A stretch of DNA of 35,834 nucleotides from Fidelibacterota bacterium (GTDB lineage Bacteria > Fidelibacterota > Marinisomatia > SCGC-AAA003-L08 > D37C17), in the NCBI GenBank assembly GCA_014381415.1, contig JACNLQ010000033.1:1-35834 (forward strand), in the 5' to 3' direction. Below the pieces are notes generated by a model. The model saw only the letters and a program-made list of their open reading frames with translations, was not told the origin of the DNA and searched no databases. Positions 1,663 through 22,997 of this stretch are shown here, piece after piece (the stretch's first letter is position 1; each line of letters starts with the position of its first letter). The translations under genes and the position numbers were made by a program.

Positions 1663-4600
1663 TTATCCCTGAGAATTCAATATAGCGTTCACAAGGGTAA
1701 CAACATCCAAAATATCAAGGGCTCCATCCTGATTCATATCTCCAGGAGCAGAATACTCACCATTTATTACTGCATTTACCAATCCAACAACATCTAAAAT
1801 ATCTAATACTCCATCTTCATTGAAGTCCCCTAAAATAAATTCAGATTCTGTACCAGTAGTAATAAATAAAGCAGAACCATCCTCAAGTGTTGCGGCAGCT
1901 TCTGGGTAAGTATTATTAAATGTGTATTGTAATCCCATATCACCTAAATGATTTTCAATTCCAATTGTAGAATAACACCCATGGCTTGGAGTACTACCAC
2001 TAGGATAGTACCCATCTGAGGCATTATTAAAATCTTGATATTGAATCTTTATTTCACTGGTATTATACAATATTATTTGAAAGGTCTGCCTAGGACCTCC
2101 GGAACAATTATTTGCATACCAACCACCAGTAAGGTCACCACATGTTCGCATATTATCCCACTGAATAACAACATACTCATCCGAAGCATAATAATATACA
2201 TAGCCACTTGAACCTGTCATAAGATCATCCCAAAAAGCAGCCACCATAGGTGAGGGACCACCTGCTCCTGGAATGGGATAATTCCTAAATGCATTCATTT
2301 CAAAATTTCCAAAAGAAATCCAACCGTTTGTATTTATCTGAATTGTATTATACTCTTCGCCATAAAATGTAAATGGAAATGGGAGCGTTCTATTATCTGT
2401 ACTAGCCGTATAACTGCTATTTCCATTCCCTTCATCAGAAATTGAGACTTGATCACCTAAACCATTGGCGATTTCAATCCAATCATAAACTGGTGCAAGC
2501 TCATAATCAGTGTCACCTGAATCATAAATATAATATCCATAAGGATCAGGACCCAATGGATCAGACACCCTTACTTCTCCAACCGTTATATTGAGAGTTT
2601 CAATTCGTGAATGACCATCATTGCTTGTTATTAATAGCTCCAAAGGTAATACGAAACCATTAATTATATTATCACTAAAAGAAAGTTTAATTTCATCTAA
2701 AGTAGTATAATCACCTACAGATAAATTATCGATTAAAAATTCTCCAGAATTCACCATTACAAAATTTTCATATGGAAGTAGTTCAACTAATATATTATTA
2801 GCCGATTTTGAGCCTTCATTTTCCAGGTTGATAGAAAATTCTGTATGGGAACCAGGATTGGTATCACCAGTATATTCCGTAATTATTAAATGAGCACCTA
2901 ATATATTAACAGGAACATGGTTAGTCCAGTTATTTCCTTTATTATCACTTATGGTAATTTGAAATTCCAAGTCTTCCATATCAAAAGCAGTTCCATGAAT
3001 ATATACAGGGATCTTTTTAGTTATAGATGAACCTACAGGGATCAAACCAAAATATGCAATGCTTTCAAAAATAGTAACTTGATCGGATGGAGAGCTTAGT
3101 TCAACAATCACATCTTCTGCTACTAATGTTCCATAATTGTACAATTCAATTTCAAATTCAGTTTCTTCACCTGCATTTGCATATATTTCAGGTGAAATTA
3201 AAGAAATAGCAGCTCCAAATGATTCGGGTATTTCAATGGTACTTTCATAAGGTCGATAATTGCGTTTTATAGCCAAAATAGACATAGTACCAGATTCTAC
3301 AGCATCCCAATTCAAGGTAATATCCCCATTTTCATCTGTTAAGCCAGTGGAAAATATTATATCATCTCCCATGAGTAAAGTAACCCTAGCACCTTCAACA
3401 AATTCACCATTTTCATCAGTGATGGTTAAATCTAAAGTGGTTGTACCTAATGCAATTGTACCAGGGTGTATAAAGTTAAAGTTTGTTGGAACCCCAGTCC
3501 ATAGGTGTAATGCAGGGTCACCGATTAAATTACTCCATTTACTGAATGCCTCGGCAGCACTTGCAGCACTACTAGGATTAGGATAAGTTGCATTTATTGC
3601 TAGATCACCATAAGCTGTTACAACCCCAGCATACCATAAATTTCTAGAAAAAATAGCATCATAAATCCCCATATTTACAATATTATTATAAGCTGTATGC
3701 GTTCCGGTTGTAGCCATTCCTACAGCACCCACCGCACCCTTGGGGTTGTTTACCGACCCCAACCATACAAATTCTTCAGAACTTGCAGTCACATTAAAAT
3801 CACCTGTGCCACAAGTTATTGTGGTAACAAAAGGGGTATCATAGCCATTATTTATTGCGTTCGTAGGATAACTTCCGTAGCCATAATACCAACCACGATA
3901 GTTATAATAGAGAATTCCAGCATTAAATTGCTGCTCCATAAATGTTTGGTTCCCACTACCATCATAATCTGTTTGCACACGATTCATTCCATGATTGACC
4001 ATTAAATTTTCAATATATTGGTTTGTAAAAATGGTGGAGTTACCAGATGAAGATGGGTCCCCAACAAGCCCCGCTTTTGAAAACCAAATATCTTCTACAA
4101 ATTCTGCTTTTTCATATCTTATGGTTTTATTAATAATATTTTCAATGTCTGAAGTCCCTCCAGAAATTCTCCCAATAAATACTTCGGGTATCAAATCTCC
4201 ACCTTGAAGCTGTGTATAATCTAAATCTGTGGAACCGGAGTATCCACCCCAACTATGAGTATAGTTTGGAAGACTATAACTGCCACCGGTGTCACCAATG
4301 AGGCCAACAATTTCTGGTGGGTTTTCCCAAGTATTATAGGCGTTGGTTATATAATTTTTAATTTCACTGGTACTGGCACTAGAGCCACCAACTTCAGATT
4401 CGGAGGCCGTATAAACAATATACCCCTGCTTATGACGCCATTCTACCAACTGTTGAACATAACTATTGGTTATGGAAGTACCACCACCAATGTATAAAAT
4501 GGCTGCAACTTGATAATCTTCAGGTCGATCAGAAGATTCAAAATTCACCATAATGTCTTTATAAAACTCATCGAATATATGTGATCGTTTAGGCTGCATT

Positions 4601-5157
4601 AATTGAGAATCAGGGTTTTCTCCTGTTTCTACAACATGTACTTCCACATCAGTAAAAACTTCTAATTTTTCATATTTTGGGTAATATTTATAGGGAATGA
4701 CGTTTATGCTTACAAATTCAATTCCCCTACCTTGTGATCGCTCTGATACAGTCAAATTCTGTTCAGGAAATACCGCAAATGAGTTATAAAACTCCTGATT
4801 AATAATATTTACATTTTCTACTTCCCAAATATCCATACTTTGATGAGGAAGAATCGTGATATTTTCAATGGTATAAGAATCCAGTATTTCCAGTTGGAAA
4901 TCGTAGGTCTTTTCGGGATTTAATTGATAAAAGGTGGTAAATATTGGAAGTTCAGGCATTCCTGCTTCAGTTGTATGACCTTCACCCATTTTAGCTAATC
5001 GTGTGTATCCACCAGAAATCTCACTAAATTCAGGCGAGTGTTGAAGACTAACCTTGCCTGTATTCCCAGCATCTAAATAACTAAAATTGTTCTCATAAGA
5101 GAATAACAGAGACAGAGAAATTGTAACTATTGATAAAATCCAAACCCTTCCGAACAT
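1663..5157 (-). CDS. Secreted C25 (gingipain-like) peptidase homolog with C-terminal dockerin
   Basis: This 1164-residue multidomain protein has a signal peptide (about 1-20), a gingipain-type propeptide-like region (about 30-190), a C25 peptidase-like domain (about 215-555), a carboxypeptidase-regulatory-like beta domain (about 565-645), two CARDB-like segments (about 655-860), a nidogen-like FPFTFYG...NGWISFG domain (about 860-1100) and a dockerin-like pair at 1109-1160 (DFNEDGVLDILDVV and DMNQDGALDILDVV). The candidate nucleophile is Cys449 in TCGTGDF. At the place where gingipains have the catalytic His (Y-x-G-H) this protein has NYRGW, so the usual dyad is incomplete; His487 in GTHTAYNN is an alternative. 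The ATG follows a GAAAGG ribosome site. It is a tandem paralog of the next gene upstream. Cell-surface or secreted proteolysis is the family role; activity here is uncertain. Confidence 0.88.
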   Translation of the reverse strand: MFGRVWILSIVTISLSLLFSYENNFSYLDAGNTGKVSLQHSPEFSEISGGYTRLAKMGEGHTTEAGMPELPIFTTFYQLNPEKTYDFQLEILDSYTIENITILPHQSMDIWEVENVNIINQEFYNSFAVFPEQNLTVSERSQGRGIEFVSINVIPYKYYPKYEKLEVFTDVEVHVVETGENPDSQLMQPKRSHIFDEFYKDIMVNFESSDRPEDYQVAAILYIGGGTSITNSYVQQLVEWRHKQGYIVYTASESEVGGSSASTSEIKNYITNAYNTWENPPEIVGLIGDTGGSYSLPNYTHSWGGYSGSTDLDYTQLQGGDLIPEVFIGRISGGTSDIENIINKTIRYEKAEFVEDIWFSKAGLVGDPSSSGNSTIFTNQYIENLMVNHGMNRVQTDYDGSGNQTFMEQQFNAGILYYNYRGWYYGYGSYPTNAINNGYDTPFVTTITCGTGDFNVTASSEEFVWLGSVNNPKGAVGAVGMATTGTHTAYNNIVNMGIYDAIFSRNLWYAGVVTAYGDLAINATYPNPSSAASAAEAFSKWSNLIGDPALHLWTGVPTNFNFIHPGTIALGTTTLDLTITDENGEFVEGARVTLLMGDDIIFSTGLTDENGDITLNWDAVESGTMSILAIKRNYRPYESTIEIPESFGAAISLISPEIYANAGEETEFEIELYNYGTLVAEDVIVELSSPSDQVTIFESIAYFGLIPVGSSITKKIPVYIHGTAFDMEDLEFQITISDNKGNNWTNHVPVNILGAHLIITEYTGDTNPGSHTEFSINLENEGSKSANNILVELLPYENFVMVNSGEFLIDNLSVGDYTTLDEIKLSFSDNIINGFVLPLELLITSNDGHSRIETLNITVGEVRVSDPLGPDPYGYYIYDSGDTDYELAPVYDWIEIANGLGDQVSISDEGNGNSSYTASTDNRTLPFPFTFYGEEYNTIQINTNGWISFGNFEMNAFRNYPIPGAGGPSPMVAAFWDDLMTGSSGYVYYYASDEYVVIQWDNMRTCGDLTGGWYANNCSGGPRQTFQIILYNTSEIKIQYQDFNNASDGYYPSGSTPSHGCYSTIGIENHLGDMGLQYTFNNTYPEAAATLEDGSALFITTGTESEFILGDFNEDGVLDILDVVGLVNAVINGEYSAPGDMNQDGALDILDVVTLVNAILNSQG

Positions 5158-5267: not shown

Positions 5268-8200
5268 CTACCCAAGAATTGTATTCACAAGTTGAACAAT
5301 ATCAAGTATATTTAATTGTCCATCTCCATTCATATCACCATTTAATTCAAATTCTTCATCCAGTATCAAATTAGCAAGTGCCACTAAATCCAAAATATCA
5401 AGGGAACCATCACTATTTAAGTCACCCATTAAACTGCCACTTACACAATCACCCCATTCCGTTTGTAATGAATTACCATAGATATTTGATATAATATTAT
5501 TGATTGGGTCCGAGCCAAAACAAATTTCACCCCCATCATAATCCGTAAAAGATACTTGACCTAATAAATGTGTTCCAGATGGGATTACTGTACCTGAGGT
5601 TGAAAATCCCAACACCATATTAGAAGAAGCGGATAAAATAAAATCATTTGCTTCTGCTTCACCTCCAGAAATTTCCATCAATGAAATTCCAAATATTTCA
5701 AATTGAAATCCTGCAACAGGATCTTCATTTTCAATTCTGATATCCAAAGTGCCATTTGTCAAGTTTATGTTTTCAAGGCTTAAATGGACTCGTGGTTGGC
5801 GACCGGTTGTTATAAAAATTGCGGTCCAATCTTGCAAGGATGCAGCAGCTTCAGGGTAGATATTATTAAATGTATATTGGAGCCCTATATCACCTAAATG
5901 GTTTTCAATACCTATGGTGGAGTAACAACCATGAATGGGAGTACCTCCATTCGGATAACTTCCATCAGATGTATTGTTAAATTCCCCATATTGAATTTTT
6001 ATTTCACTATCTCCAGTGATTGTAGGAGAAAAATAGTCTTTATTATATAAAATTATTTCGAATGTTTCATGATATTGACCACTATTATCATATGTTCTGA
6101 GATCATCCCATTGAATTACAACCATTTCTTCTGTTTCATAATAATATACATACCCACCGCCACCCGTTTTAAGATCATCCCAAAAGGCTGCAACCATTGG
6201 CGATGGACCTCCTGCACCTGGAATTGGATAATTACGAAAAGAGTACATCAAAAAGTCTCCAAATGAAATCCATCCATTTGTATTCACTACAATTTGATCA
6301 TAATCTATACCATAAAAGGTAAATATGAATGGTAAATCAATAAGGGTAGAACCATTCGTATATGTACCGGCATAATTATTTCCATTTCCATTATCATAAA
6401 TTGGAAGTTGTTCGCCTAATTCATCTGGTAATTCAATCCAATTAAAATTGGGGGCATAATTACTATCTTCATCTTCTGAATCGTAAATGTAATACCCATA
6501 GGCATCTGGTCCTAAAGGATCTGACTCCCTTACTTCACCAACCGTAATATTAAAATTTTCTACCCTTGAATATCCATCACTACTGGTTAATAATAGTTCC
6601 ATTGGAAAAACTGAGCCATTGATTATATCATTATGGAAACTAAGGTCAAATCCATTTGAATTTAGATTATTTCCTACACCAATATTGTCCAAATTTATCA
6701 AACTAGAATTTACCGCAACATCCGTTTCGATTGATATTAGTTCCGCTGTGAACCCATGAGCAATTCGGCTACCATAATTTGCTAAATTTATTGAAATTTC
6801 TGCATCCATTCCCGGTAGAAATTCACCATTATAATCGGTCACTTTAAGATGTGGTCCAGAAATAGTAACAGGTAAATGATTAAGCCAATTATTACCCAAT
6901 TCGTCACTGATAGTAAGTTGAAATTCTAAATCCTCCATATCATGAGCAGTGCCGTGAATATAAACAGGATATAGTTTAGAAACCGTTGACCCAGCAGTGA
7001 TATTTCCAAAATAATTTATACTTTCAGTGATAGTAACATGTTCAGAAAGTGAACTTAATTCAGCAATGACATTTTCGGATTCCACATTTCCGTAATTGTG
7101 TAATGCAATTTCAAATTGATTTGATTCACCCGAATTTACATATATTTGATTCGGTATAATTGAAATTGCAGCACCAAAAGATTCAGGAATTTCTATATTC
7201 CCTTCGTAAGGACGAAAATCACTTTTCATTGCCATTATAGATATATTGCCAGCTTCAACAGCATCCCAATTTAAAGTGATTTCTCCATTTTCATCAGTCA
7301 CTCCAGTTGAAAAAATGACATCTTCGCCCATTAATAAGGTAACTCGCGCATTTTCAACTAAATTTCCATCACTATTATAAACTATAATCTCCATAGTAGT
7401 TGTGCCCAATGAAATAGTAGCGGGATGATCTACAATAAAATTATCAGGCTTCCCTGTCCATAGATGTAACGCAGGGTCTCCAATGAGGTTGCTCCATGCA
7501 ATAAATGTTTGGGTAACATCTGAAGGGTTTTCTGGGTAAGTTGCCAAAATAGCTAAATCGCCATTTGCTACAGATGCACCCGCATACCATAGTTTTTTTG
7601 CAAATATTCCATCATAAATGCCCATGTCAACGATGTTATTATATGCGGTATGGGTTCCGGTAGTAGAAATGCCTACAGCTGCAACTGCACCTTCAGGATT
7701 ATTCACAGAACCCAATTTCACAAAGCCTTCACTCTGAGAATTACCGTTATCATAATCACCCGTACCGCATGTCATGGTAGTGACAAATGGAGTTTCGTAT
7801 CCATTATTAAATTGGCTACTAGCACCTGTTCCTTCATCCCCATAAATACCTCGGTAATTATAGTAAAGGATTCCATCTTGAAACTGATTGACAACAAAAC
7901 TACTAATTCCATACCCATCATAGTCAGTGGCAATATCAGTCATACCATGGTTGATCATAAGATTTTCAATATATTGATTGGTAAAAACAGTGGAATTCCC
8001 TGATTCAACAGGGTCACCAACCAATGCCGCTTTTGTAAACCAATCATCATCTACATACAATGCTTTTTCATACTGGATGGTTTTATTGATAACATTTTCC
8101 ATGACTGAAGTTTGTTGACCTGAAATTCTACCAATAAAAACTTCCGGAATCAAATCATCACCGTCTAACTGAGTGAAATCAAAATCGGTAGCCCCATTAT

Positions 8201-9098
8201 AACTATTCCAACCCCCTGGTCCCCAGGATTGATAAAAGCAATCTATTACATCCGTATCGCCAATAAGCCCCACAATTTCAGGTGGGTTTTCCCAAGTTTC
8301 GTAGGCATTTTTAATATAGCTTTTGATGGTATTTTCGTTAGAAGTTGGAGTATCATAGGTATAGACTATATAGCCTTGTTTATGGCGCCATTCAAACAAA
8401 TCTTGAACATAGCTATTATTAATCCAATTTCCACCTGCAATGTAAAGTATGGCAGGCGCCTGGTAATCTTCAGGGCGGTCAGAATACTCAAAATTTACTA
8501 TTAGATCTTTGTAAAACTCATCAAAAATAAGGGATCGCATCGGCTGGGTTAATTGGGGGTTTGGATTATCGCCTGTTTCAATAACATGAATGTCAATATC
8601 GGTAAATACTTCTAATTTTTCATATTTAGGATAATATTTGTACGGTGTGACCTGAATACTCACAAATGCAATTCCTCGCCCCTGTGACCGTTCGGATATT
8701 ACCATGTTCTGTTCTGGAAAAGCAGCGTATGAATTGTATATTTCCGTGTTAATTATATTTACATTATCTACTTCCCATTTTTCCATACCTTGGTGAGGTA
8801 GAATTGTAATATTTTCAATGGTATATGATTCCAATACCTCCAGTTGAAAGTCATAAGTCTTTTCGGGATCTAATTGATAAAATGTTGTAAATCGAGGAAG
8901 TTCAGGCATGCCTGCTTCGGTGGTATGTCCCTGTCCGATTTTTGCCAGACGGGTATATCCTCCATTTATTTCGGTGAATTCGATGGAATGCTGAAGGCTT
9001 ATTTTCCCAGTCCCAGAATTAGAAAAATTATTTTCGTATGAAAATAAAACGGATAGCGAAATTAAAATAAAATATAATCTACGTAATAGTTGCCCCAC
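5268..9098 (-). CDS. Secreted C25 peptidase homolog with cohesin-like module and dockerin
   Basis: This 1276-residue paralog of the following gene has the same domain order: signal peptide (about 1-20), propeptide-like region, C25-like domain (about 210-550), regulatory beta domain, CARDB-like segments and a nidogen-like domain (about 855-1098). It then has an extra cohesin-like module (about 1102-1218, containing PVAGFQFEIFG, VLGFSTSG and IPSGTHLLGQVSF) before the dockerin-like pair (1224-1276: DLNSDGSLDILDLV, DMNGDGQLNILDIV). Cys444 in TCGTGDY matches the expected nucleophile; NYRGI replaces the usual catalytic-His motif, and GTHTAYNN (His483) is conserved with the paralog. The start is a GTG with AAGGAG four bases upstream; an ATG two bases earlier is in another frame. 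Exported protein processing or degradation is inferred from the family. Confidence 0.88.
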   Translation of the reverse strand: MGQLLRRLYFILISLSVLFSYENNFSNSGTGKISLQHSIEFTEINGGYTRLAKIGQGHTTEAGMPELPRFTTFYQLDPEKTYDFQLEVLESYTIENITILPHQGMEKWEVDNVNIINTEIYNSYAAFPEQNMVISERSQGRGIAFVSIQVTPYKYYPKYEKLEVFTDIDIHVIETGDNPNPQLTQPMRSLIFDEFYKDLIVNFEYSDRPEDYQAPAILYIAGGNWINNSYVQDLFEWRHKQGYIVYTYDTPTSNENTIKSYIKNAYETWENPPEIVGLIGDTDVIDCFYQSWGPGGWNSYNGATDFDFTQLDGDDLIPEVFIGRISGQQTSVMENVINKTIQYEKALYVDDDWFTKAALVGDPVESGNSTVFTNQYIENLMINHGMTDIATDYDGYGISSFVVNQFQDGILYYNYRGIYGDEGTGASSQFNNGYETPFVTTMTCGTGDYDNGNSQSEGFVKLGSVNNPEGAVAAVGISTTGTHTAYNNIVDMGIYDGIFAKKLWYAGASVANGDLAILATYPENPSDVTQTFIAWSNLIGDPALHLWTGKPDNFIVDHPATISLGTTTMEIIVYNSDGNLVENARVTLLMGEDVIFSTGVTDENGEITLNWDAVEAGNISIMAMKSDFRPYEGNIEIPESFGAAISIIPNQIYVNSGESNQFEIALHNYGNVESENVIAELSSLSEHVTITESINYFGNITAGSTVSKLYPVYIHGTAHDMEDLEFQLTISDELGNNWLNHLPVTISGPHLKVTDYNGEFLPGMDAEISINLANYGSRIAHGFTAELISIETDVAVNSSLINLDNIGVGNNLNSNGFDLSFHNDIINGSVFPMELLLTSSDGYSRVENFNITVGEVRESDPLGPDAYGYYIYDSEDEDSNYAPNFNWIELPDELGEQLPIYDNGNGNNYAGTYTNGSTLIDLPFIFTFYGIDYDQIVVNTNGWISFGDFLMYSFRNYPIPGAGGPSPMVAAFWDDLKTGGGGYVYYYETEEMVVIQWDDLRTYDNSGQYHETFEIILYNKDYFSPTITGDSEIKIQYGEFNNTSDGSYPNGGTPIHGCYSTIGIENHLGDIGLQYTFNNIYPEAAASLQDWTAIFITTGRQPRVHLSLENINLTNGTLDIRIENEDPVAGFQFEIFGISLMEISGGEAEANDFILSASSNMVLGFSTSGTVIPSGTHLLGQVSFTDYDGGEICFGSDPINNIISNIYGNSLQTEWGDCVSGSLMGDLNSDGSLDILDLVALANLILDEEFELNGDMNGDGQLNILDIVQLVNTILG

Positions 9099-9199: not shown

Positions 9200-10522
9200 T
9201 TATTCTAAAACAGGACCTTTTAATAACCCATTTTGCTGATATTTAATTTTATATTTTTTATATAACGTCTTATGTCTATCAGTTAAATCAATTTCTCTTC
9301 CCTGAATAAATGCCCTTTCAACCTGGGTTCTAATATCTAAAATATCTCCATCGGCAATAAATAATGTGGCTTCCTTCCCAACCTCTAGGGATCCCACTTT
9401 TTCATCTACTCCCAATATCTCTGCAGTGGAAAGGGTAATGGACCGTAATGCTTCTTCCCATGGAAGTCCGTATGAAGCGGCTTTGGCAGCATGATAGGGT
9501 AAATTTCGAATATGAGGCGTCTGAAAAGGTGACTCACTATTGGAAATACAGAATTTTACTCCTGCTTCAAATAATTGAAATGGGGTTGTAAATGCCTGAT
9601 CATAATTTTCAAACCTCCGCATGGGTGTTGAATGGGTCTGTGTATAAATGACTGGAATATCTCTATCTTTTAATAGCGTGGTTGTGCGCCATGAATCTTT
9701 ACCTCCCACCAGAACCATTTCCAGATTTTGGCGGTCAGCCCAGTACACAGCCGCTTCAATTTGCCTAACTTCATTGGCATGAATGAATACTGGAATATCC
9801 CCCGTCAAAACAGACAGCATTCCCTCTAATCGTAAATCATGTTTAAAGGATGAACTCCTGGATTCTTTCAGCTTCAAATATGCCCGGGATTCCTGAATCA
9901 GATCATCAATTTTCTGGATAGATTTTAGGCGTGACTCTTTGTCAGATTTATCCTTCTTTTCTGCTTTATCCGATTTTGCTACATTCATGGATGGCCAAAA
10001 TAAATGCAGCCCCACCGGATGTTGTAGTGTGGCATCTTCCCAAGTCCAGCCATCTAACATCATGAGCGACGACATACCTGACATCCGCCCGGACCGAGGC
10101 ACAGATAATGCTAATAATATTCCATTGGATCGAGAAATGGGTATGATTTCTGAATCGGGGTTATAACTTACATTTGCTCGAACGTTGGGATTTATACTCC
10201 CCACTTCTGCATAATCACGAGTAGCCCGCACTGCCCCAATTTCCTGTAATCCTAATGTGGAACCGGCAGAAATAAGTCCTGGGAAAATATGTTTACCAGA
10301 GATATCAATTTTTTCAATTTTGTACATTGCAGAAAGGTTGTGACCTACTGAAATAATCTTTCCGCCATCAAATAATATTTCTGCATTTTCTAAGACCCCA
10401 TGGGATACGGTATGAATGGTAGCTCCTGTAAAAATAATGGGGTGATCTTGAGGAGGTCCCGGGATTTGGTCCGAGGCAAATAATAAACTAAAAAGTAGGG
10501 TTATGGAGTAAATCAATTTCAT
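9200..10522 (-). CDS. Secreted amidohydrolase-family protein lacking HxH
   Basis: From the ATG at 10522 the product is 440 residues, with the signal peptide MKLIYSITLLFSLLFAS. A longer frame to 10576 exists, but the ATG at 10522 overlaps the previous stop as ATGA and has GGAGG five bases upstream, so it is preferred. The fold signature of imidazolonepropionase-like amidohydrolases is present: GKHIFPGLIS near the N-terminus, VFIHANE in the middle, and GSLEVGKEATLFIADGD at the C-terminus. The usual metal-binding HxH after PGLID is replaced by SAGST, and the usual late Asp motif reads SNSES. It may therefore be a non-catalytic partner of the larger amidohydrolase encoded just upstream, or use a different site. 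A Lys/Glu-rich insertion lies in the middle (KSDKAEKKDKSDKES). Substrate unknown. Confidence 0.82.
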   Translation of the reverse strand: MKLIYSITLLFSLLFASDQIPGPPQDHPIIFTGATIHTVSHGVLENAEILFDGGKIISVGHNLSAMYKIEKIDISGKHIFPGLISAGSTLGLQEIGAVRATRDYAEVGSINPNVRANVSYNPDSEIIPISRSNGILLALSVPRSGRMSGMSSLMMLDGWTWEDATLQHPVGLHLFWPSMNVAKSDKAEKKDKSDKESRLKSIQKIDDLIQESRAYLKLKESRSSSFKHDLRLEGMLSVLTGDIPVFIHANEVRQIEAAVYWADRQNLEMVLVGGKDSWRTTTLLKDRDIPVIYTQTHSTPMRRFENYDQAFTTPFQLFEAGVKFCISNSESPFQTPHIRNLPYHAAKAASYGLPWEEALRSITLSTAEILGVDEKVGSLEVGKEATLFIADGDILDIRTQVERAFIQGREIDLTDRHKTLYKKYKIKYQQNGLLKGPVLE

Positions 10523-13482
10523 AATTCCTCCAGGCAATTGTGATGATCTACAGATTTCTTTTCTGAATGATTCCATTTTTTTCCCTTAGAATCACTTTTC
10601 TTTGATAAAATTTTACCCACCAATTTATCCCGTAATTCTGTATCTCTTGCTTTTAGTTCTGCATCCTTTTCCAGTGAAAAATATTGGACTCCATCTATCC
10701 ATGTTTGCTCACACTTTGCTCTTGTAGATAGCGGATGATCGCTCCAAATTACAAAATCTGCATCTTTCCCCACTTCCAGAGAGCCCACCCATTTATCAAT
10801 ATTTAACTGAATCGCCGGATTAATTGTCACCAGTTTCAATGCTTCTTCTTCAGATAGATTACCATATTTCATCCCTTTAGCTGCTTCTGTATTCATCCGC
10901 CGCGCTAATTCCCGAGAATCTGAATTAAAAGAAACCGTCACACCAACATCCGTCATAAGCGCACCATTGTAAGGGATGGCATCTATGACCTCATATTTAT
11001 ATGCCCACCAATCGGAAAAGGTGGAAGCATTTGCACCATGTTCTTTCAAGCGGTCAGCAACCTTATAACCTTCCAATACATGCTGAAAAGTGCCTACGGT
11101 GAATCCAAAATCTTCAGCAACCCGGGTGAGCATAAGAATTTCATCCTGCCGATAAGAATGACAATGAATTTGTCTTTTCCCTTCCAGAATTTCAACCAAT
11201 GCATCCAATTCTAAATCTTGTCGGGGGGGTATTTTCTTTTTCCATTTTTTATTATTTTTTCTAAAATCAATCCATTCATTTTGATATTCAACAGCCGAAG
11301 CAAAAGCGTCTCGGAGAATCTGCTCTACTCCCATACGGGTCTGTGGATATCGGGTGGTATTCTCATCTCCCCAATTGGACTGTTTTACATTCTCACCTAA
11401 GGCTAATTTGATTCCAGGCATTGCATTTTCATATAGCAAATATTCAGGAGTGGCACCCCATCGCATTTTGATTACCGCATTTTGTCCACCAATGGTATTT
11501 GCCGAACCATGGAGGATATTTGCCATAGTAAGTCCCCCAGCGAGTTGCCTGTAAATGGTTATATCATCACTATTCATTACATCCTGAATTCGAACTTCTG
11601 CTGTAATAGATTGAGTTCCTTCATTGATGGAAAAAGCCGCTGAATGTGAGTGACAGTCAATAAGTCCGGGAGTGATATGTTTTCCCGTTCCATCAATTTT
11701 GGTGACCCCTTTTGAATTGAGACTATAGCCTATTTTTTTTACTTTTCCACCTTCAAATAAAATATCAACCCCTTCTAATTTTCCCTGTTTTCCACAGGTC
11801 CATACGGTGGTATTCTGAATAAGAATTGATTTGGCATCCTGTAGAACATCATTTTCCAATCCATAGGTTCCTTCAGGATAATAAACAGATAATTCTGAAC
11901 TATTTTCTTTATCTTCCTCCTTCTTTTCTTCTTTTTCCAATCCGCCTATTTTCAATGCACTCCAACTGAGTTGTAAGTCGTGAGCTGTACCTTCCATTCT
12001 ATTTTCTAAAATGTGACCAGTGAATCGGCTGGGTCCAGCAGTAGAATCTAATGTCACCTGCCAGCTGATAAATCGCCCTCCAATTTTTAATTTGGATAGT
12101 TTAAAATTGGTGGTATCTTGAATAACTGATCCACTGTAACTATTGTTTTTTTTCTTCAGCTCTAATTGATACCACTTTTTGCCCATAGTGAGTTTCCACT
12201 CTCCGGCAATATCTGTGTCATATTTTGGTAAAACAGGATATTCCTCACCTCCAATCCAGGTAGAAACAATCTTAGATTTATTCTGGAAATAATTCCCATC
12301 TACGATGGTGAGATTAGCGAGAAACCCTTGCTCAATTTTGCCTAATTGATTTCCCTTCCCCATTTTCTCAGCAGGAATCGTTGTAAGAGCTGCTAATGCA
12401 TCAGTTTCTGAAAGACCCCGCTCTATAGAACGGATCAGATTTTTCCGGAATTCATTGCCCTTTAATCCATGAGATGTAAATGCAAAAGAAACACCATGGT
12501 CGATTAAAATAGCAGGATTATCTGCTGCTAAATCCCAGTGTTTCAGCTCAGAAGTACTATAGCTCAGCGCTTGGTAGGGGTGAGATAGATCGGGAGTTAC
12601 AGGAAAATCTAGGGGTAAAATAATAAAGGGATTCACCTTTGCAATTTCTGAAATCCGTCTATATTCATAGCCGCTTCCCCTGATCCAACTATTTAACTGA
12701 AATTCATCACTAATATTGAAAGACCGTAATACGGAAAGTTCCTGGTTGGTTTCAAAAATGAAGGGTTTATTTTCCTGACGCCAATTACTGAAAACATCTA
12801 AATCTCTATTTCCCTTAAGGGGTTCATTGAACTTAGGAAATTGTTTTGTAATAGCATTGGCTTCTCCGTACCATGTCGCATCCATTAAAGTTTGTCTCAA
12901 TAAGGCCACCACACCAAGAAGGGAATTCGGATATTTGTCACTACCCCAGCCATCTACCTCGTAGGCAATATCCTGAGCCACCGCCGAAATTAGCACCGTA
13001 CCTTCATTATTCAGTTGAACTAGGGCGGTCTGTCCTTGAAATATCCCTGAATCGGGTACGATGTGGGCAGCAGTAAATCCCATTTTATGGAGAGATTCCA
13101 GTTTTTTCTTAACGGGCTGATACTGACTGTATAATTCCCGGCGGGCATTCACTTTGTGGTTCCAATGTGCATCGTGGGGAATTGTATTTTCTGGCTGAGT
13201 TGAAATTTCCACCCAGCTGTCAATGAATCCGGAATAAATGGTTTTGCCGGTTAAATCCAATACTGTGGCATCATTGGGAATTCGGATATCTCTACCCACA
13301 TTTTCAATAAACCCATCACGAATTACAATAGTGGCATTCCCCAAATAGGTACCTGGTTCAATGTAAACCTTGGCATGGGTCAGCGCCCAAACTCTTGGTG
13401 GATTTTCTCTTAATCCATCCACCGGTTCAATTTGATTGAATATTAAGCTCAACAAACAAAAATATAAAAATAATATTCTCAT
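10519..13482 (-). CDS. Secreted two-unit amidohydrolase-family protein
   Basis: This 987-residue exported protein (signal about 1-18) contains two amidohydrolase-like halves. The N-terminal half (about 30-415) ends in the typical GKIEQGFLANLTIVDG, but its metal site is lost: the expected IDxHxH reads IDSWVE. A small beta domain (about 425-510) and a charged linker (KEEKKEEDKE) follow. The C-terminal half (about 545-935) keeps the metal-binding set: HSH at 611-613, His773 in QIHCHSY, His801 in FQHVLEG and Asp855 in FNSDS, then GSLEVGKDADFVIW. Family members hydrolyse cyclic amides or peptides (imidazolonepropionase and related proteins); the substrate is not predictable here. The gene overlaps the next amidohydrolase by ATGA at its end and the preceding small gene by ATGA at its start, so the set is translationally coupled. 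Confidence 0.88.
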   Translation of the reverse strand: MRILFLYFCLLSLIFNQIEPVDGLRENPPRVWALTHAKVYIEPGTYLGNATIVIRDGFIENVGRDIRIPNDATVLDLTGKTIYSGFIDSWVEISTQPENTIPHDAHWNHKVNARRELYSQYQPVKKKLESLHKMGFTAAHIVPDSGIFQGQTALVQLNNEGTVLISAVAQDIAYEVDGWGSDKYPNSLLGVVALLRQTLMDATWYGEANAITKQFPKFNEPLKGNRDLDVFSNWRQENKPFIFETNQELSVLRSFNISDEFQLNSWIRGSGYEYRRISEIAKVNPFIILPLDFPVTPDLSHPYQALSYSTSELKHWDLAADNPAILIDHGVSFAFTSHGLKGNEFRKNLIRSIERGLSETDALAALTTIPAEKMGKGNQLGKIEQGFLANLTIVDGNYFQNKSKIVSTWIGGEEYPVLPKYDTDIAGEWKLTMGKKWYQLELKKKNNSYSGSVIQDTTNFKLSKLKIGGRFISWQVTLDSTAGPSRFTGHILENRMEGTAHDLQLSWSALKIGGLEKEEKKEEDKENSSELSVYYPEGTYGLENDVLQDAKSILIQNTTVWTCGKQGKLEGVDILFEGGKVKKIGYSLNSKGVTKIDGTGKHITPGLIDCHSHSAAFSINEGTQSITAEVRIQDVMNSDDITIYRQLAGGLTMANILHGSANTIGGQNAVIKMRWGATPEYLLYENAMPGIKLALGENVKQSNWGDENTTRYPQTRMGVEQILRDAFASAVEYQNEWIDFRKNNKKWKKKIPPRQDLELDALVEILEGKRQIHCHSYRQDEILMLTRVAEDFGFTVGTFQHVLEGYKVADRLKEHGANASTFSDWWAYKYEVIDAIPYNGALMTDVGVTVSFNSDSRELARRMNTEAAKGMKYGNLSEEEALKLVTINPAIQLNIDKWVGSLEVGKDADFVIWSDHPLSTRAKCEQTWIDGVQYFSLEKDAELKARDTELRDKLVGKILSKKSDSKGKKWNHSEKKSVDHHNCLEEL

Positions 13483-17678: not shown

Positions 17679-20600
17679 TTATTTCAATAGCATGAGCTTT
17701 TGAGTTTGGACAAATTGCTGTCCATTTCCAGATGCAAAGTCATCAATGACAATAGTTAGAAAATAAAGTCCACTGGAATGGCTATCAGCATTCCAATTAA
17801 CAACATGGTATCCCGCTGAATATACACCATTAGCAAGCTCTGCAACTTCACGTCCATTAATATCAATCACTTTTGCCATTACTACTGCATCATTTTCTAT
17901 GCCAAAAGTAATATTGGTTACAGGATTAAATGGATTTGGATATGCGGAAACCAACAGCACTTCGTCTGGCATTTCTCTTGCCGCAAGCTGACCAAGAGTA
18001 AATATTTCATTACTTTTCCAAGCTGGGACTACATCCATAATCTGGTAAACTTTTCCAGTGGTATTCTGCTGTACTTTAAATGTGAGCATGCTACCCATAT
18101 TACTGTAACCCTCAGTCTCAAAAGCTCCATCATATCCCATGGCTGGAATATCAGTAAAAGTACCTTTCCATTGGCGAGCACCTACCAGAGTTTTTCCATT
18201 GTAGGTGAGAATCCAATCTCCATTTGAAACAGGCATTCCATCCAGAATAATGTCTTCTATAAAATAGAATGCTTGTTGTGTAGATTGGTAAATATCATTG
18301 TTATCTGGAGCTGTTAATCCAACATCTTCATCATATTTTATTCTACTCATAGTACTCACATCAAAGGAAAAAGAGATATTTTCAGTGGTAATCATCCAAT
18401 ATCCATTTCCTCCACTTAGCGCAGATAAACTTCCCTGCCATGGAGGTTGATTATTAGCTGCCACACCTTCTCCAATAATACCACTTACAAAGCCTTCAAT
18501 ATCATCTGGTAAACTGGAACTTATACCTACAGACCCTTCAACGGGGAAAGAAATTAAATTTGCGCCACTATGAAGAGAATATTGAATAGCAGGATCAGTG
18601 GGATTCCCATCCTCAATACATAATGAACCCGCCTCACTCACAATTACCCAGTATCCAGATAATGAACTAATATTATTTAAACTACCCATCCATTCTACCC
18701 CATTATAGTTGGCGGCCACACCTTCCCCAATAACACCAGTGGCATTACCTTCAATTGAAGACATTACATGGGTTATAGATACATCATCAGGAAGCCCATA
18801 AAAACTTATCAGGTTGGCACCGGAATGTAAATCCAGACAGTAGTCAATCGTTGTGCTTTCTTCAGGGCAGTCTGCAGTATCACACACAAATGTGCCATCC
18901 CAACATTCAATTTCTCCAGGACCACCGCATACACCACATTCATCAATTTCAGCAGTACCAAAACATTCACCAGCGCAGTCCATATCGGCATTACCACCTT
19001 CACAAACACCGCAGTCATCTAACTCTGCGGTTGAACCACATACATCATCACAGCCATCGGTTGGAAGCTCATCATAAACACCACAGCCACAGCCCTGATC
19101 ATAGTCGGTTCCACCCCATACACCAAAACAGTCTTCTACACAGTCATTAGAGCTGTCATCATCACAAGTGCCACACTCATCTTCAGTAGCGGTTGAACCA
19201 CATACATCATCACAGCCATCGGTTGGAAGCTCATCATAAACTCCACAGCCACAGCCCTGATCATAATCGGTTCCACCCCATACACCAAAACAGTCTTCTA
19301 AACAATCATTAGAGCTGTCATCATCACAGGTGCCACACATATCTTCTACATTTGGACCATTTGGAACGCCAGCACAGTCATCACAGTCATCACCAGAGTT
19401 ATTACCAGCTACACATCCACAATCACTTTCCCATGAATCGCCATTTGGTACTCCTTCACAATCAGAGCAGGTGGAGTTATCACCACCACATACATCGCAA
19501 TCATCATTTTCTAAAGTTGACCCACATTCATTATCACAACCAGATGGCCCAGGCTCAAAACATCCACAGCCTAAATCAACAGCATTGTCATTGGATGGAT
19601 CAGCATCACAGACACCGCAATTATCTTCATACGCAGATCCACCCCATTCACCGGCACAATCCTGCACACAGTCATTTGAGTAGTCATTGTCACAGGTACC
19701 GCAGTTATCTACAATATTATCTCCATTTGGAACACCTGCACAATCATCACAATCATCACCAGAATTATCAGCAGCTACACAGCCGCAATCACTTTCCCAA
19801 CTATCGCCATTGGGTACACCGGCACAGTCCGCGCAGGATGAATTATCACCACCGCAAACACCACAGTCATCATTTTCTAAGGTTGAACCACAAACATTAT
19901 CACAACCAGATGGTCCAGGTTCAAAACATCCACAGCCTAAATCATCAGAACCATCACCTCCGCATACTCCACAGGCATCTAATTCTGCAGATCCACCGCA
20001 ATCACCAGCACAATCGTAAAAGTTATCAGCACAATCTGGATATTCATCACTACAATCTAATACCAATTCAGAACCACCAGCATAGTAAATGAATGGGATA
20101 GCATTACCAGTTGCATCAGATACAACAATCCCTGATAACCCTGTTGCTGATCCATCTAAATTAACTTGTGTAAGTGTACCGCATCCTGGTCCAAAAGTTG
20201 CACCAGTTAATGAAAATCCGATAACCATTGAACCACCTGTACTCACCATAAATCCAGCATCACCTGCATCTCCACCGGAAGCACTACTAGCAGTGGCTCC
20301 ATCTACATTAAACTGGAAACCACCTATTTCTTCTGACGACTGATAATATACTGAGCCGTCTTCTCCTAAAAACAAGTTTAAATCTGGTAGATCACAGCCA
20401 TCTGTAATATCTCTGCCACCATCTATACATTCTTGAGATTCTGATCCTGGATTCCCAAGACCATCACCATCAGTATCTTCACACATAGTTGCCCATATAG
20501 ATGAACCGCCGCAGACATCGGCACAGTCTAATTCATTACCATCACAGTCACAATCCCCGTCCGGAATACCAAATTCTCCAGGAGATCCACAACCACAATC

Positions 20601-22997
20601 CTGCTGTACTCCGTCACCACCACAGACACCGCATTCATCAATTACAGCACTGCCGCCGCATTCACCGGCGCAGTCAAATTCGTTTGCTGCACAATCTGGA
20701 TATTCATCACTACAATCTAATACCAATTCAGAACCACCAGCATAGTAAATGAATGGGATAGCATTACCAGTTGCATCAGATACAACAATCCCTGATAACC
20801 CTGTTGCTGATCCATCTAAATTAACTTGTGTAAGTGTACCGCATCCTGGTCCAAAAGTTGCACCAGTTAATGAAAATCCGATAACCATTGAACCACCTGT
20901 ACTCACCATAAATCCAGCATCACCTGCATCTCCACCGGAAGCACTACTAGCAGTGGCTCCATCTACATTAAACTGGAAACCACCTATTTCTTCTGACGAC
21001 TGATAATATACTGAGCCGTCTTCTCCTAAAAACAAGTTTAAATCTGGTAGATCACAGCCATCTGTAATATCTCTGCCACCATCTATACATTCTTGAGATT
21101 CTGATCCTGGATTCCCAAGACCATCACCATCAGTATCTTCACACATAGTTGCCCATACAGAAGATCCTCCACATACTCCAGCACAGTCTTCCACATTTTC
21201 GTCACAGTCACATGCACCCTGTGGAATACCATTTCCTCCGCATACTCCACATTCATCTAATTCTAAAGTGGAACCGCATACATTATCACAACCAGATGGC
21301 CCAGGTTCAAAACATCCACAGCCTAAATCATCAGAACCATCACCTCCGCATACACCACAGGCATCATTCTCTAAGGTTGACCCACAAACATTATCACAAC
21401 CAGATGGTCCAGGTTCAAAACATCCACAGCCTAAATCATCAGAACCATCACCTCCGCATACACCACAGGCATCATTCTCTAAGGTTGACCCACAAACATT
21501 ATCACAACCAGATGGGCCAGGTTCAAAACAACCGCATCCCAAATCATCAGAGCCATCACCACCACATACACCACAGGCATCATTCTCTAAAGTAGAGCCG
21601 CATACATTATCACAACCACTGGGACCTGCTTCCCCGCAGCCACAACCTAAATCTACATTATTATTACAATCGCAAGCCCAAGGCGGAATACCATCCCCTC
21701 CACATATTCCGCATTCATCAATTTCTGCTGAGCCACCACATTCTCCAGCACAATCTAATTCTAAACAACTACCATCCTCAATAGTAGCATCCGGATTATA
21801 GTTACAGGCCGTATCATTCATGCAGCCTTCAATATCACTACCCCCACAATTTCCACATGATTCTGGGCATAGTTCACCAATAGGTGTTCCTCCCCATAAA
21901 AAATCACAACCCCAGGTAGTTACAGCATACCCACAGGTAAAGGGTGCTACAGAGGCATCATCATCAAAACAGGGATATTCACAGGTACCATCATCAATAG
22001 TTGCGTCTGGGTTATAATTTGCTGCTTCGGAATCCATACAGCCATACACATCAGCTGCTGGACAGGCATCACAAGTGACAGGACATAATTCACTTATAGG
22101 TACACCACCCCATAAAAAATCGCATCCCCAATTGGCATATCCCATTGCACAATCAAATGGTGCCAATGCAGCGTCATTGTCAACACATTCTTCAATAATT
22201 GAGCCAATATTAAAAATGATTGGATTCATTACATCTCCCAGAATATCATTAATGACAAATTCATAGGTTTCTACAATATCTAATATTGCATCTGCTGATG
22301 CATCATAATATTTGTATGAAATAAGATCACCTTCAGCATTACTACGCAATTGAACTTCAAATACAGGGGTTCCCTCATAGGGACCAAAGGGGGGGAATAA
22401 CAAGAGCCCGACACCGCGAACATTTCCATCTTCATCAAAGGCAGCAAATATGTCCCCATCATCACCCATTTGCTCACCACTCTCGCTTAGTATTATTCCA
22501 CCTGAAATTGTTGCTGTAAATTCATAGCATCCGGGACAGTCTACCCAATCAGGGGCATTTGTTTCAATTTCTTGAATATTAAAAGTAATAGGATTAATTA
22601 CATCGCCTAAAATATCATTAATGACAAATTCATAGGTTTCTGCAATGTCTAAAACTGCATCTGCAGATGCATCATAATATTTGAAGGATAAGAGGTCACC
22701 TCCAGCATTACTACGCAATTGTACTTCAAAAACAGGTGTTCCTGCATAGGGTCCAAAAGGCGGAAACAACATAAGACCAAGCCCCCTGACATCACCGGCA
22801 TCATCAAAGGCCGCAAACATATCTCCCTCATCCCCCATCTGCTCACCATTCTCACTTAGTATTATACCACCAGAAATTGTTGCTGTAAATTCATATCCGC
22901 CAGGATTATCCACCCAATCTGGTGGACTAGCATTTAGATATTGTGTTGAAATTATTATAAGTACTACTGGTAAGATACTTCGGCTTAAAAACTTCAT
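17679..22997 (-). CDS. Giant cysteine-rich repeat protein with type IX-like sorting tail
   Basis: The product is about 1772 residues from ATG at 22997 (a TTG at 23006 would add three); GGAGGAG lies upstream. A signal peptide ends near LNA-SPPDW. Two copies of an about 120-residue module follow (about 28-147 and 151-268, numbered from the TTG; DWVDxPGxYEFTATISGGIIL). The region 274-1388 has roughly 130 cysteines: two ShKT-like segments, GCMDxxAxNYNPDAT motifs, four tandem 36-residue repeats (about 453-596), two identical cohesin-like modules (about 652-765, 872-985), and dispersed DCAGxCGGSA / CGVCGGDG units. Two LHSGANLISF modules (about 1390-1458, 1476-1543) precede a sorting domain from about 1688 (YPNPFNPVTNITFGI). 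This suggests export through a type IX-like system and disulfide-rich display on the surface. Adhesin or scaffold is inferred; there is no enzyme motif. Confidence 0.9.
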   Translation of the reverse strand: MKFLSRSILPVVLIIISTQYLNASPPDWVDNPGGYEFTATISGGIILSENGEQMGDEGDMFAAFDDAGDVRGLGLMLFPPFGPYAGTPVFEVQLRSNAGGDLLSFKYYDASADAVLDIAETYEFVINDILGDVINPITFNIQEIETNAPDWVDCPGCYEFTATISGGIILSESGEQMGDDGDIFAAFDEDGNVRGVGLLLFPPFGPYEGTPVFEVQLRSNAEGDLISYKYYDASADAILDIVETYEFVINDILGDVMNPIIFNIGSIIEECVDNDAALAPFDCAMGYANWGCDFLWGGVPISELCPVTCDACPAADVYGCMDSEAANYNPDATIDDGTCEYPCFDDDASVAPFTCGYAVTTWGCDFLWGGTPIGELCPESCGNCGGSDIEGCMNDTACNYNPDATIEDGSCLELDCAGECGGSAEIDECGICGGDGIPPWACDCNNNVDLGCGCGEAGPSGCDNVCGSTLENDACGVCGGDGSDDLGCGCFEPGPSGCDNVCGSTLENDACGVCGGDGSDDLGCGCFEPGPSGCDNVCGSTLENDACGVCGGDGSDDLGCGCFEPGPSGCDNVCGSTLELDECGVCGGNGIPQGACDCDENVEDCAGVCGGSSVWATMCEDTDGDGLGNPGSESQECIDGGRDITDGCDLPDLNLFLGEDGSVYYQSSEEIGGFQFNVDGATASSASGGDAGDAGFMVSTGGSMVIGFSLTGATFGPGCGTLTQVNLDGSATGLSGIVVSDATGNAIPFIYYAGGSELVLDCSDEYPDCAANEFDCAGECGGSAVIDECGVCGGDGVQQDCGCGSPGEFGIPDGDCDCDGNELDCADVCGGSSIWATMCEDTDGDGLGNPGSESQECIDGGRDITDGCDLPDLNLFLGEDGSVYYQSSEEIGGFQFNVDGATASSASGGDAGDAGFMVSTGGSMVIGFSLTGATFGPGCGTLTQVNLDGSATGLSGIVVSDATGNAIPFIYYAGGSELVLDCSDEYPDCADNFYDCAGDCGGSAELDACGVCGGDGSDDLGCGCFEPGPSGCDNVCGSTLENDDCGVCGGDNSSCADCAGVPNGDSWESDCGCVAADNSGDDCDDCAGVPNGDNIVDNCGTCDNDYSNDCVQDCAGEWGGSAYEDNCGVCDADPSNDNAVDLGCGCFEPGPSGCDNECGSTLENDDCDVCGGDNSTCSDCEGVPNGDSWESDCGCVAGNNSGDDCDDCAGVPNGPNVEDMCGTCDDDSSNDCLEDCFGVWGGTDYDQGCGCGVYDELPTDGCDDVCGSTATEDECGTCDDDSSNDCVEDCFGVWGGTDYDQGCGCGVYDELPTDGCDDVCGSTAELDDCGVCEGGNADMDCAGECFGTAEIDECGVCGGPGEIECWDGTFVCDTADCPEESTTIDYCLDLHSGANLISFYGLPDDVSITHVMSSIEGNATGVIGEGVAANYNGVEWMGSLNNISSLSGYWVIVSEAGSLCIEDGNPTDPAIQYSLHSGANLISFPVEGSVGISSSLPDDIEGFVSGIIGEGVAANNQPPWQGSLSALSGGNGYWMITTENISFSFDVSTMSRIKYDEDVGLTAPDNNDIYQSTQQAFYFIEDIILDGMPVSNGDWILTYNGKTLVGARQWKGTFTDIPAMGYDGAFETEGYSNMGSMLTFKVQQNTTGKVYQIMDVVPAWKSNEIFTLGQLAAREMPDEVLLVSAYPNPFNPVTNITFGIENDAVVMAKVIDINGREVAELANGVYSAGYHVVNWNADSHSSGLYFLTIVIDDFASGNGQQFVQTQKLMLLK
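19014..19337 (-). repeat. Two tandem 162-bp coding repeats
   Basis: Two nearly identical 54-residue units inside the giant gene carry CFGVWGGTDYDQGCGCG and YDELPTDGCDDVCGS. The DNA match is visible, for example, from 19039 and again from 19201. Confidence 0.85.
20029..20497 (-). repeat. Perfect 469-bp direct repeat, copy A
   Basis: The sequence is identical, base for base as far as I can read, to 20689-21157 at an offset of 660 bp. It encodes the EDTDGDGLGNPGSE linker and a cohesin-like module (EIGGFQFNVDG, MVIGFSLTG). Flanks diverge immediately at both ends. Confidence 0.92.
20689..21157 (-). repeat. Perfect 469-bp direct repeat, copy B
   Basis: Partner of 20029-20497. Absence of even synonymous differences implies a recent duplication, ongoing gene conversion or strong recombination. 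An assembly collapse or expansion across it is possible. Confidence 0.92.
21219..21650 (-). repeat. Four tandem 108-bp coding repeats
   Basis: Units are 36 residues each, LGCGCFEPGPSGCDNV...GVCGGDGSDD, with landmarks at 21293, 21401, 21509 and 21617, exactly 108 bp apart. Inner copies are nearly identical in DNA; the outer ones have diverged. A further dispersed copy lies near 19860-19960. Confidence 0.9.
22203..22925 (-). repeat. Duplicated 120-residue N-terminal module
   Basis: Two in-frame copies (22566-22925 and 22203-22556) encode YEFTATISGGIILSE, then FPPFGPY, VFEVQLRSNA and TYEFVINDILGDV. They are highly similar but not identical, so older than the 469-bp repeat. Confidence 0.85.

Follow-up and report, generated by a model that had tools for sequence, protein, structure and literature searches.

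A perfect in-frame repeat of a predicted cohesin-like module in a Cys-rich exported protein of Candidatus Neomarinimicrobiota

When two long stretches within a single bacterial gene are identical to the last base, it has to be asked whether they are recent copies, and what further exchange between them would do to the encoded protein. Here we address this question for a gene of Candidatus Neomarinimicrobiota, a widespread uncultured marine phylum. The gene lies in a stretch of 35,834 nucleotides (the window), which is the complete contig C10 of an 85-contig, 1.9-Mb MAG with 88% completeness. The citrate synthase encoded in this genome shares 94% identity with that of Candidatus Neomarinimicrobiota strain D37C17, a member of the same genus.

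Exact repeat and layout of the surrounding gene

A first-pass annotation had described a perfect 469-bp direct repeat within a coding region (20029-20497 and 20689-21157), with flanks that diverge immediately. Indeed, 469/469 bases are equal, the exact match extends 0 bp to either side, and both copies fall in a minus-strand ORF (17679-22997) that encodes a modular exported protein of 1772 amino acids (P0001). Below, R denotes the repeated unit, R1 its first copy in the protein (20689-21157) and R2 the identical second copy (20029-20497), the offset between them being 660 bp or 220 codons. In a scan for exact direct repeats from 40 bp up, this pair was the longest in the window; the next-longest repeats, of 107 and 80 bp, are both located in the same gene. 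The 469-bp identity is not due to chance.

All parts of the gene run on the minus strand. In protein order, a signal-like N-terminus (probable signal peptide of 23 residues, 22929-22997, judged by eye from the translation) is followed by two diverged N-terminal domains with a period of 369 bp or 123 residues (22206-22895; 83% matches in TRF) and by a Cys-rich array of the DCAGxCGGS/CGVCGG type that precedes the first module (21158-22187). R1 shows a DTDGDG start and, as judged from repeat, codon and predicted fold, a cohesin-like core; a Cys-rich spacer of 191 bp or ~63 residues (M; 20498-20688) separates it from R2. Downstream come Cys-rich repeats (18858-20028), then two LISF stretches, then the C-terminal sorting domain of T9SS type A at residues 1686-1752 (17742-17942). 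The Cys-rich parts contain further in-frame tandem arrays, a 108-bp array in the upstream portion (21228-21618) and a 162-bp pair in the downstream portion (19027-19346); one pair is identical over 107 bp.

The C-terminal tail scored 29.9 bits against TIGR04183 in hmmscan, above the cut-off of 23, which supports the exported or surface nature of the protein that the annotation had proposed. Pfam PF18962 matched the same tail with 23.7 bits, below its cut-off of 27. A six-frame search of the genome listed 48 T9SS-tail matches; the tail of the repeat gene is absent from this list, although hmmscan detects it. In addition, a PorU-like gene on contig C66 was matched in pieces at 159.9 and 109 bits, below the family cut-off of 420.

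Identity of the copies includes synonymous sites, as had been noted at the outset: 0/155 complete core codons differ. By comparison, where the flanks encode the same amino acid, the R1 and R2 sites use different codons in 9/21 cases within the 40 codons upstream of the module and in 15/20 cases within the 40 codons downstream, or 24/41 in the combined flanks. The motif GGSS ahead of the module and the motif DCAGxCGGSA behind it retain their residues with mostly different codons. This contrast between core and flanks indicates that the module was recently copied or homogenised while the old Cys-rich flanks were left uncopied and, together with the exact identity, it supports the initial suggestion of a recent duplication or gene conversion. 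With 0/469 differences, the divergence of the copies is bounded at ~0.64% (95%).

It could be argued that selection on the protein sequence alone keeps two old modules alike, given that the R1 and R2 proteins are identical over 155 residues. However, such selection is already contradicted by the absence of synonymous change in the 155 core codons, and other module pairs of the family diverge: the 86 within-ORF pairs from 13 ORFs have a median identity of 58%, with two pairs at 95% or more and only the window pair at 100%. We therefore regard this explanation as practically untenable.

Origin of the repeat

As 469 bp exceed the usual length of short reads, an assembler might have duplicated or averaged a true gene that carries one R or two diverged copies of R. 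The fragmented state of the MAG is compatible with such an artefact, as are the runs of N, either gaps or masked sequence, that occur within two further family genes of the same MAG. However, an in-frame 191-bp spacer with R on both sides would not be expected from a single-copy gene. Moreover, a DNA search of the 1.9-Mb genome found whole R only as the two window copies, neither of them at a contig end, all other matches to R being partial or weak (63-76% identity). Relatives also show the same kind of tract (see below), although their assemblies may be prone to the same error. We consider an artefact unlikely. With R bordering the in-frame spacer at either end, the gene should contain at least two copies of R, and the number could be higher.

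In 14/81 module-bearing contigs of relatives, a module lies <500 bp from the contig start, versus 2.1 contigs expected (131 rows). Beside citrate synthase, where six relatives were compared, the contigs of G001, G002 and G012 end within a family gene, no family gene was found in G003, G005 and G026, and no single-copy ortholog was found in any of the six. Such breaks are what repeats difficult to assemble would give, but they would equally result from strain variation or low coverage. Since contigs of the relatives tend to break near modules, the assemblies may largely hide how many repeats these genes really contain.

We rejected a simple 660-bp tandem duplication as the source of the second copy, since the sequence that follows R2 is not M. 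Beyond the R core, identity drops fast to the level of the Cys-rich repeats and then to background. One module may have been copied over another by ectopic conversion, or inserted between Cys-rich repeats, presumably through RecA-type homologous recombination within the gene or between family members. On the upstream side of R2, the adjoining 146 bp of M match the flank of a paralogue located on contig C76 with 79% identity. In their cores, the C76 module and a module on contig C13 share 60% and 70% of amino acids with R, respectively. Amino-acid identity to the C76 flanks over aligned columns is nearly equal for the R2 and R1 sites (upstream 71% vs 70%, downstream 49% vs 46%). As far as these alignments can tell, there are hints that modules and flanks differ in history and that R2 may sit in the older context, though the R1 flanks are nearly as close to C76.

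Relatives of the module are encoded at 31 places in the genome, R1 and R2 included, and the module is present in 29 of the 60 genomes searched, counting the genome under study. The comparison collections hold one genome per species. Five genomes of the same genus yielded only partial matches to R, in G001 and G003, and the copying event thus cannot be polarised there. A search for other strains or copies confirmed no relative in IMG/VR, gave no match in phage records and turned up no second strain.

Repeats were surveyed in 41 stretches (268,625 bases), comprising the window and 40 stretches around family genes and citrate synthase genes. Exact direct repeats of at least 60 bp were present in 10/41 of these stretches, which were mostly selected for holding the family, so that the count does not represent a genome-wide rate. 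In G010 (contig C16), a near-identical tract of ~455 bp recurs at an offset of 1134, with a module pair at 98.8% identity, and G011 (contig C13) contains a near-identical tract of ~720 bp with a 12-bp shift. On a contig of G003 (C291; L192, 1-809), the N-terminal domain is repeated in tandem, perfectly over 443 bp and with a period of 366; this tandem reaches the contig end and is a clearer example of its kind than the repeat in the window. In the window and these three contigs, identity takes no more than one or two 30-bp bins to fall at each contig-internal edge, while for repeats on contigs C64 and C13 of the genome under study it declines more gradually. Near-identical in-frame module tracts recur in the same protein family in relatives. 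Contig C114 of G006 was considered as a second perfect R pair and rejected, as its 124-bp repeat sits in Cys-rich flanks.

A crossover between R1 and R2 would remove or add 220 codons, and with them one predicted docking site, while leaving the frame intact; the arithmetic of the offset supports the earlier statement that recombination between the copies removes 660 bp in frame. On/off phase variation of a surface antigen, which the annotation had also brought up, was not borne out. The direct repeats would be able to recombine, but 660 is a multiple of 3, so that gain or loss of the segment stays in frame, and among the exact repeats listed, up to five per surveyed stretch, the sole out-of-frame offset spans a run of N. 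Switching of this kind is highly improbable in our view, whereas variation of length or valency by R1/R2 recombination is plausible.

Predicted fold of the module and possible docking partners

From an alignment of three modules, all taken from the window, AlphaFold predicted a β-sandwich with a mean pLDDT of 64 (two of the five models at 36.5) and 10-residue means of 77-88 over residues 41-130 of the module model; from the single sequence of R, the pLDDT was 38. When the module model was compared to the PDB with Foldseek, ranks 1-6 were cohesin entries by title, the best with an E value of 1.2e-3 and a probability of 1.00, and no match had an E value of 0.001 or better. VIA-align superimposed the model on the archaeal cohesin 2xdh (Z 9.6, 2.6 Å, 101 residues), and 43 of the 50 rows listed were cohesins or cellulosome complexes, judged by their titles; the non-cohesin sandwich YcnI reached a Z of 8.8, level with most of the cohesin rows.

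At the sequence level, the Pfam cohesin family PF00963 gave no match in two overlapping sets of 21 and 14 modules, searched at E values up to 1 and 5. Likewise, a PDB sequence search with R and two family profiles returned nothing significant, a scaffoldin cohesin at an E value of 0.51 being at chance level. Searched over 2498 ORFs, the module profile matched an ORF on contig C58 with an E value of 7.4e-5, in the same stretch as a PF00963 match over cut-off (E 1.9e-6), and an ORF on contig C14 with 5.8e-4, again in the same stretch as a PF00963 match, here under cut-off (0.02); the best unrelated locus had an E value of 0.011. Among four loci fetched for their cohesin matches, the module profile finds two clearly, one at an E value of 0.1 and one not at all. 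In hhalign comparisons of the module profile with the genome's five cohesin matches, probabilities were only 20% and 13%. These searches hint at a modest sequence link to a Pfam cohesin of the same genome, and we term the module cohesin-like rather than a cohesin. With its predicted cohesin-like core, the protein may be scaffoldin-like and dock dockerin-bearing partners.

Candidate partners are encoded in the same genome, which contains 67 Dockerin_1 matches (65 over cut-off alone and one more with its neighbours); 12 of the 67 have a T9SS tail ≤1500 bp downstream on the same strand. Two of these dockerin matches are located in the window, both at the ends of neighbouring minus-strand C25 peptidases of the gingipain family and one of them borderline. 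The first peptidase (5268-9098) bears a related cohesin-like module (5478-5780) and, at its C-terminus, a type I dockerin over cut-off. The second (1663-5157) ends in a weak dockerin match (1678-1833) that scored 20.1 bits against a cut-off of 22.9 and, in a second search, 22.9 bits, marked as over. A Pfam scan found no T9SS tail on either peptidase. The module profile also located one related cohesin-like module (1072-1278) in a 174-aa ORF on the same strand (982-1506). Elsewhere on the minus strand of the window, overlapping ORFs (9200-10576 and 10519-13482) carry amidohydrolase domains, the smaller one matching the Pfam models in their C-terminal part only. At two other sites of the genome (C58:8544-9596 and C48:61120-62784), a PF00963 match, a dockerin and a T9SS tail lie in succession on one strand, as judged from coordinates, the cohesin match on C48 being under cut-off.

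Dockerin-like calcium motifs are common outside cellulosomes. Based on the modelled fold, we hypothesize that the module might bind dockerins; if the cohesin reading holds, recombination between R1 and R2 would alter docking valency rather than reach. Taken together, the repeat is probably a real, recent, in-frame copy of a whole module, predicted to be cohesin-like, within a T9SS-exported, Cys-rich protein that may be scaffoldin-like.

Relation to known systems

Periscope Proteins are exported proteins, including examples from Gram-negatives, in which one gene encodes highly identical domain repeats, and their length changes are proposed to arise from intragenic recombination (PMC8201768; PMC9704523). 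By analogy, the present module might have no partner at all, the protein being a plain length-variable stalk in which the repeat sets only its reach, since identical-domain repeats in surface proteins have been proposed to vary in number in this way (PMC8201768; PMC9704523). Repeats of this class are delimited as >50 residues with at least 80% identity within one protein, and those of the present gene comprise 156 codons with 100% identity. However, Periscope Proteins, as there described, contain tandem arrays, whereas the two copies here are not adjacent, ~63 residues of diverged, Cys-rich spacer lying between them. In addition, the predicted fold resembles that of a docking module, and 67 dockerin matches occur in the same genome. 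A stalk is thus a possible reading, on which we would place only limited weight.

Cellulosomal scaffoldins with near-identical cohesins are known. Like these, the present protein combines predicted cohesin-like modules in one exported chain, with dockerin matches in the same genome. It differs from them by divergent modules that the Pfam cohesin family does not recognise, by its Cys-rich linkers, by a T9SS tail in place of a Gram-positive anchor and in that the dockerin-bearing proteins include C25 peptidases.

T9SS type A cargo proteins are best known from Bacteroidetes. The present protein resembles them in its C-terminal sorting domain, which scores over the NCBIfam cut-off; the host, however, belongs to the Neomarinimicrobiota, and its PorU-like gene falls below the family cut-off. 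In open-licence literature, we found no work on surface proteins of Marinimicrobia/SAR406 or on Marinimicrobia cohesin-dockerin systems, and for Marinimicrobia and type IX secretion only a study on esterases (PMC8767016).

One may speculate further, although we deem it rather doubtful as a whole, that Neomarinimicrobiota export a cohesin-dockerin apparatus through T9SS and that recombination tunes the genes of its scaffold. Whole cohesin-like modules would then be perfectly copied within and between genes, and cells of one population would vary in how many identical docking sites they carry and in what order, such as sites for the dockerin-tailed C25 peptidases encoded nearby.

Should the modules dock dockerin proteins, the phylum may employ a kind of scaffold described chiefly for cellulose degraders and have a simple genetic means of changing its valency. 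The repeat appears to work in the manner of Periscope Proteins and of the duplicated cohesins of scaffoldins; what is unusual is the place in which it occurs.
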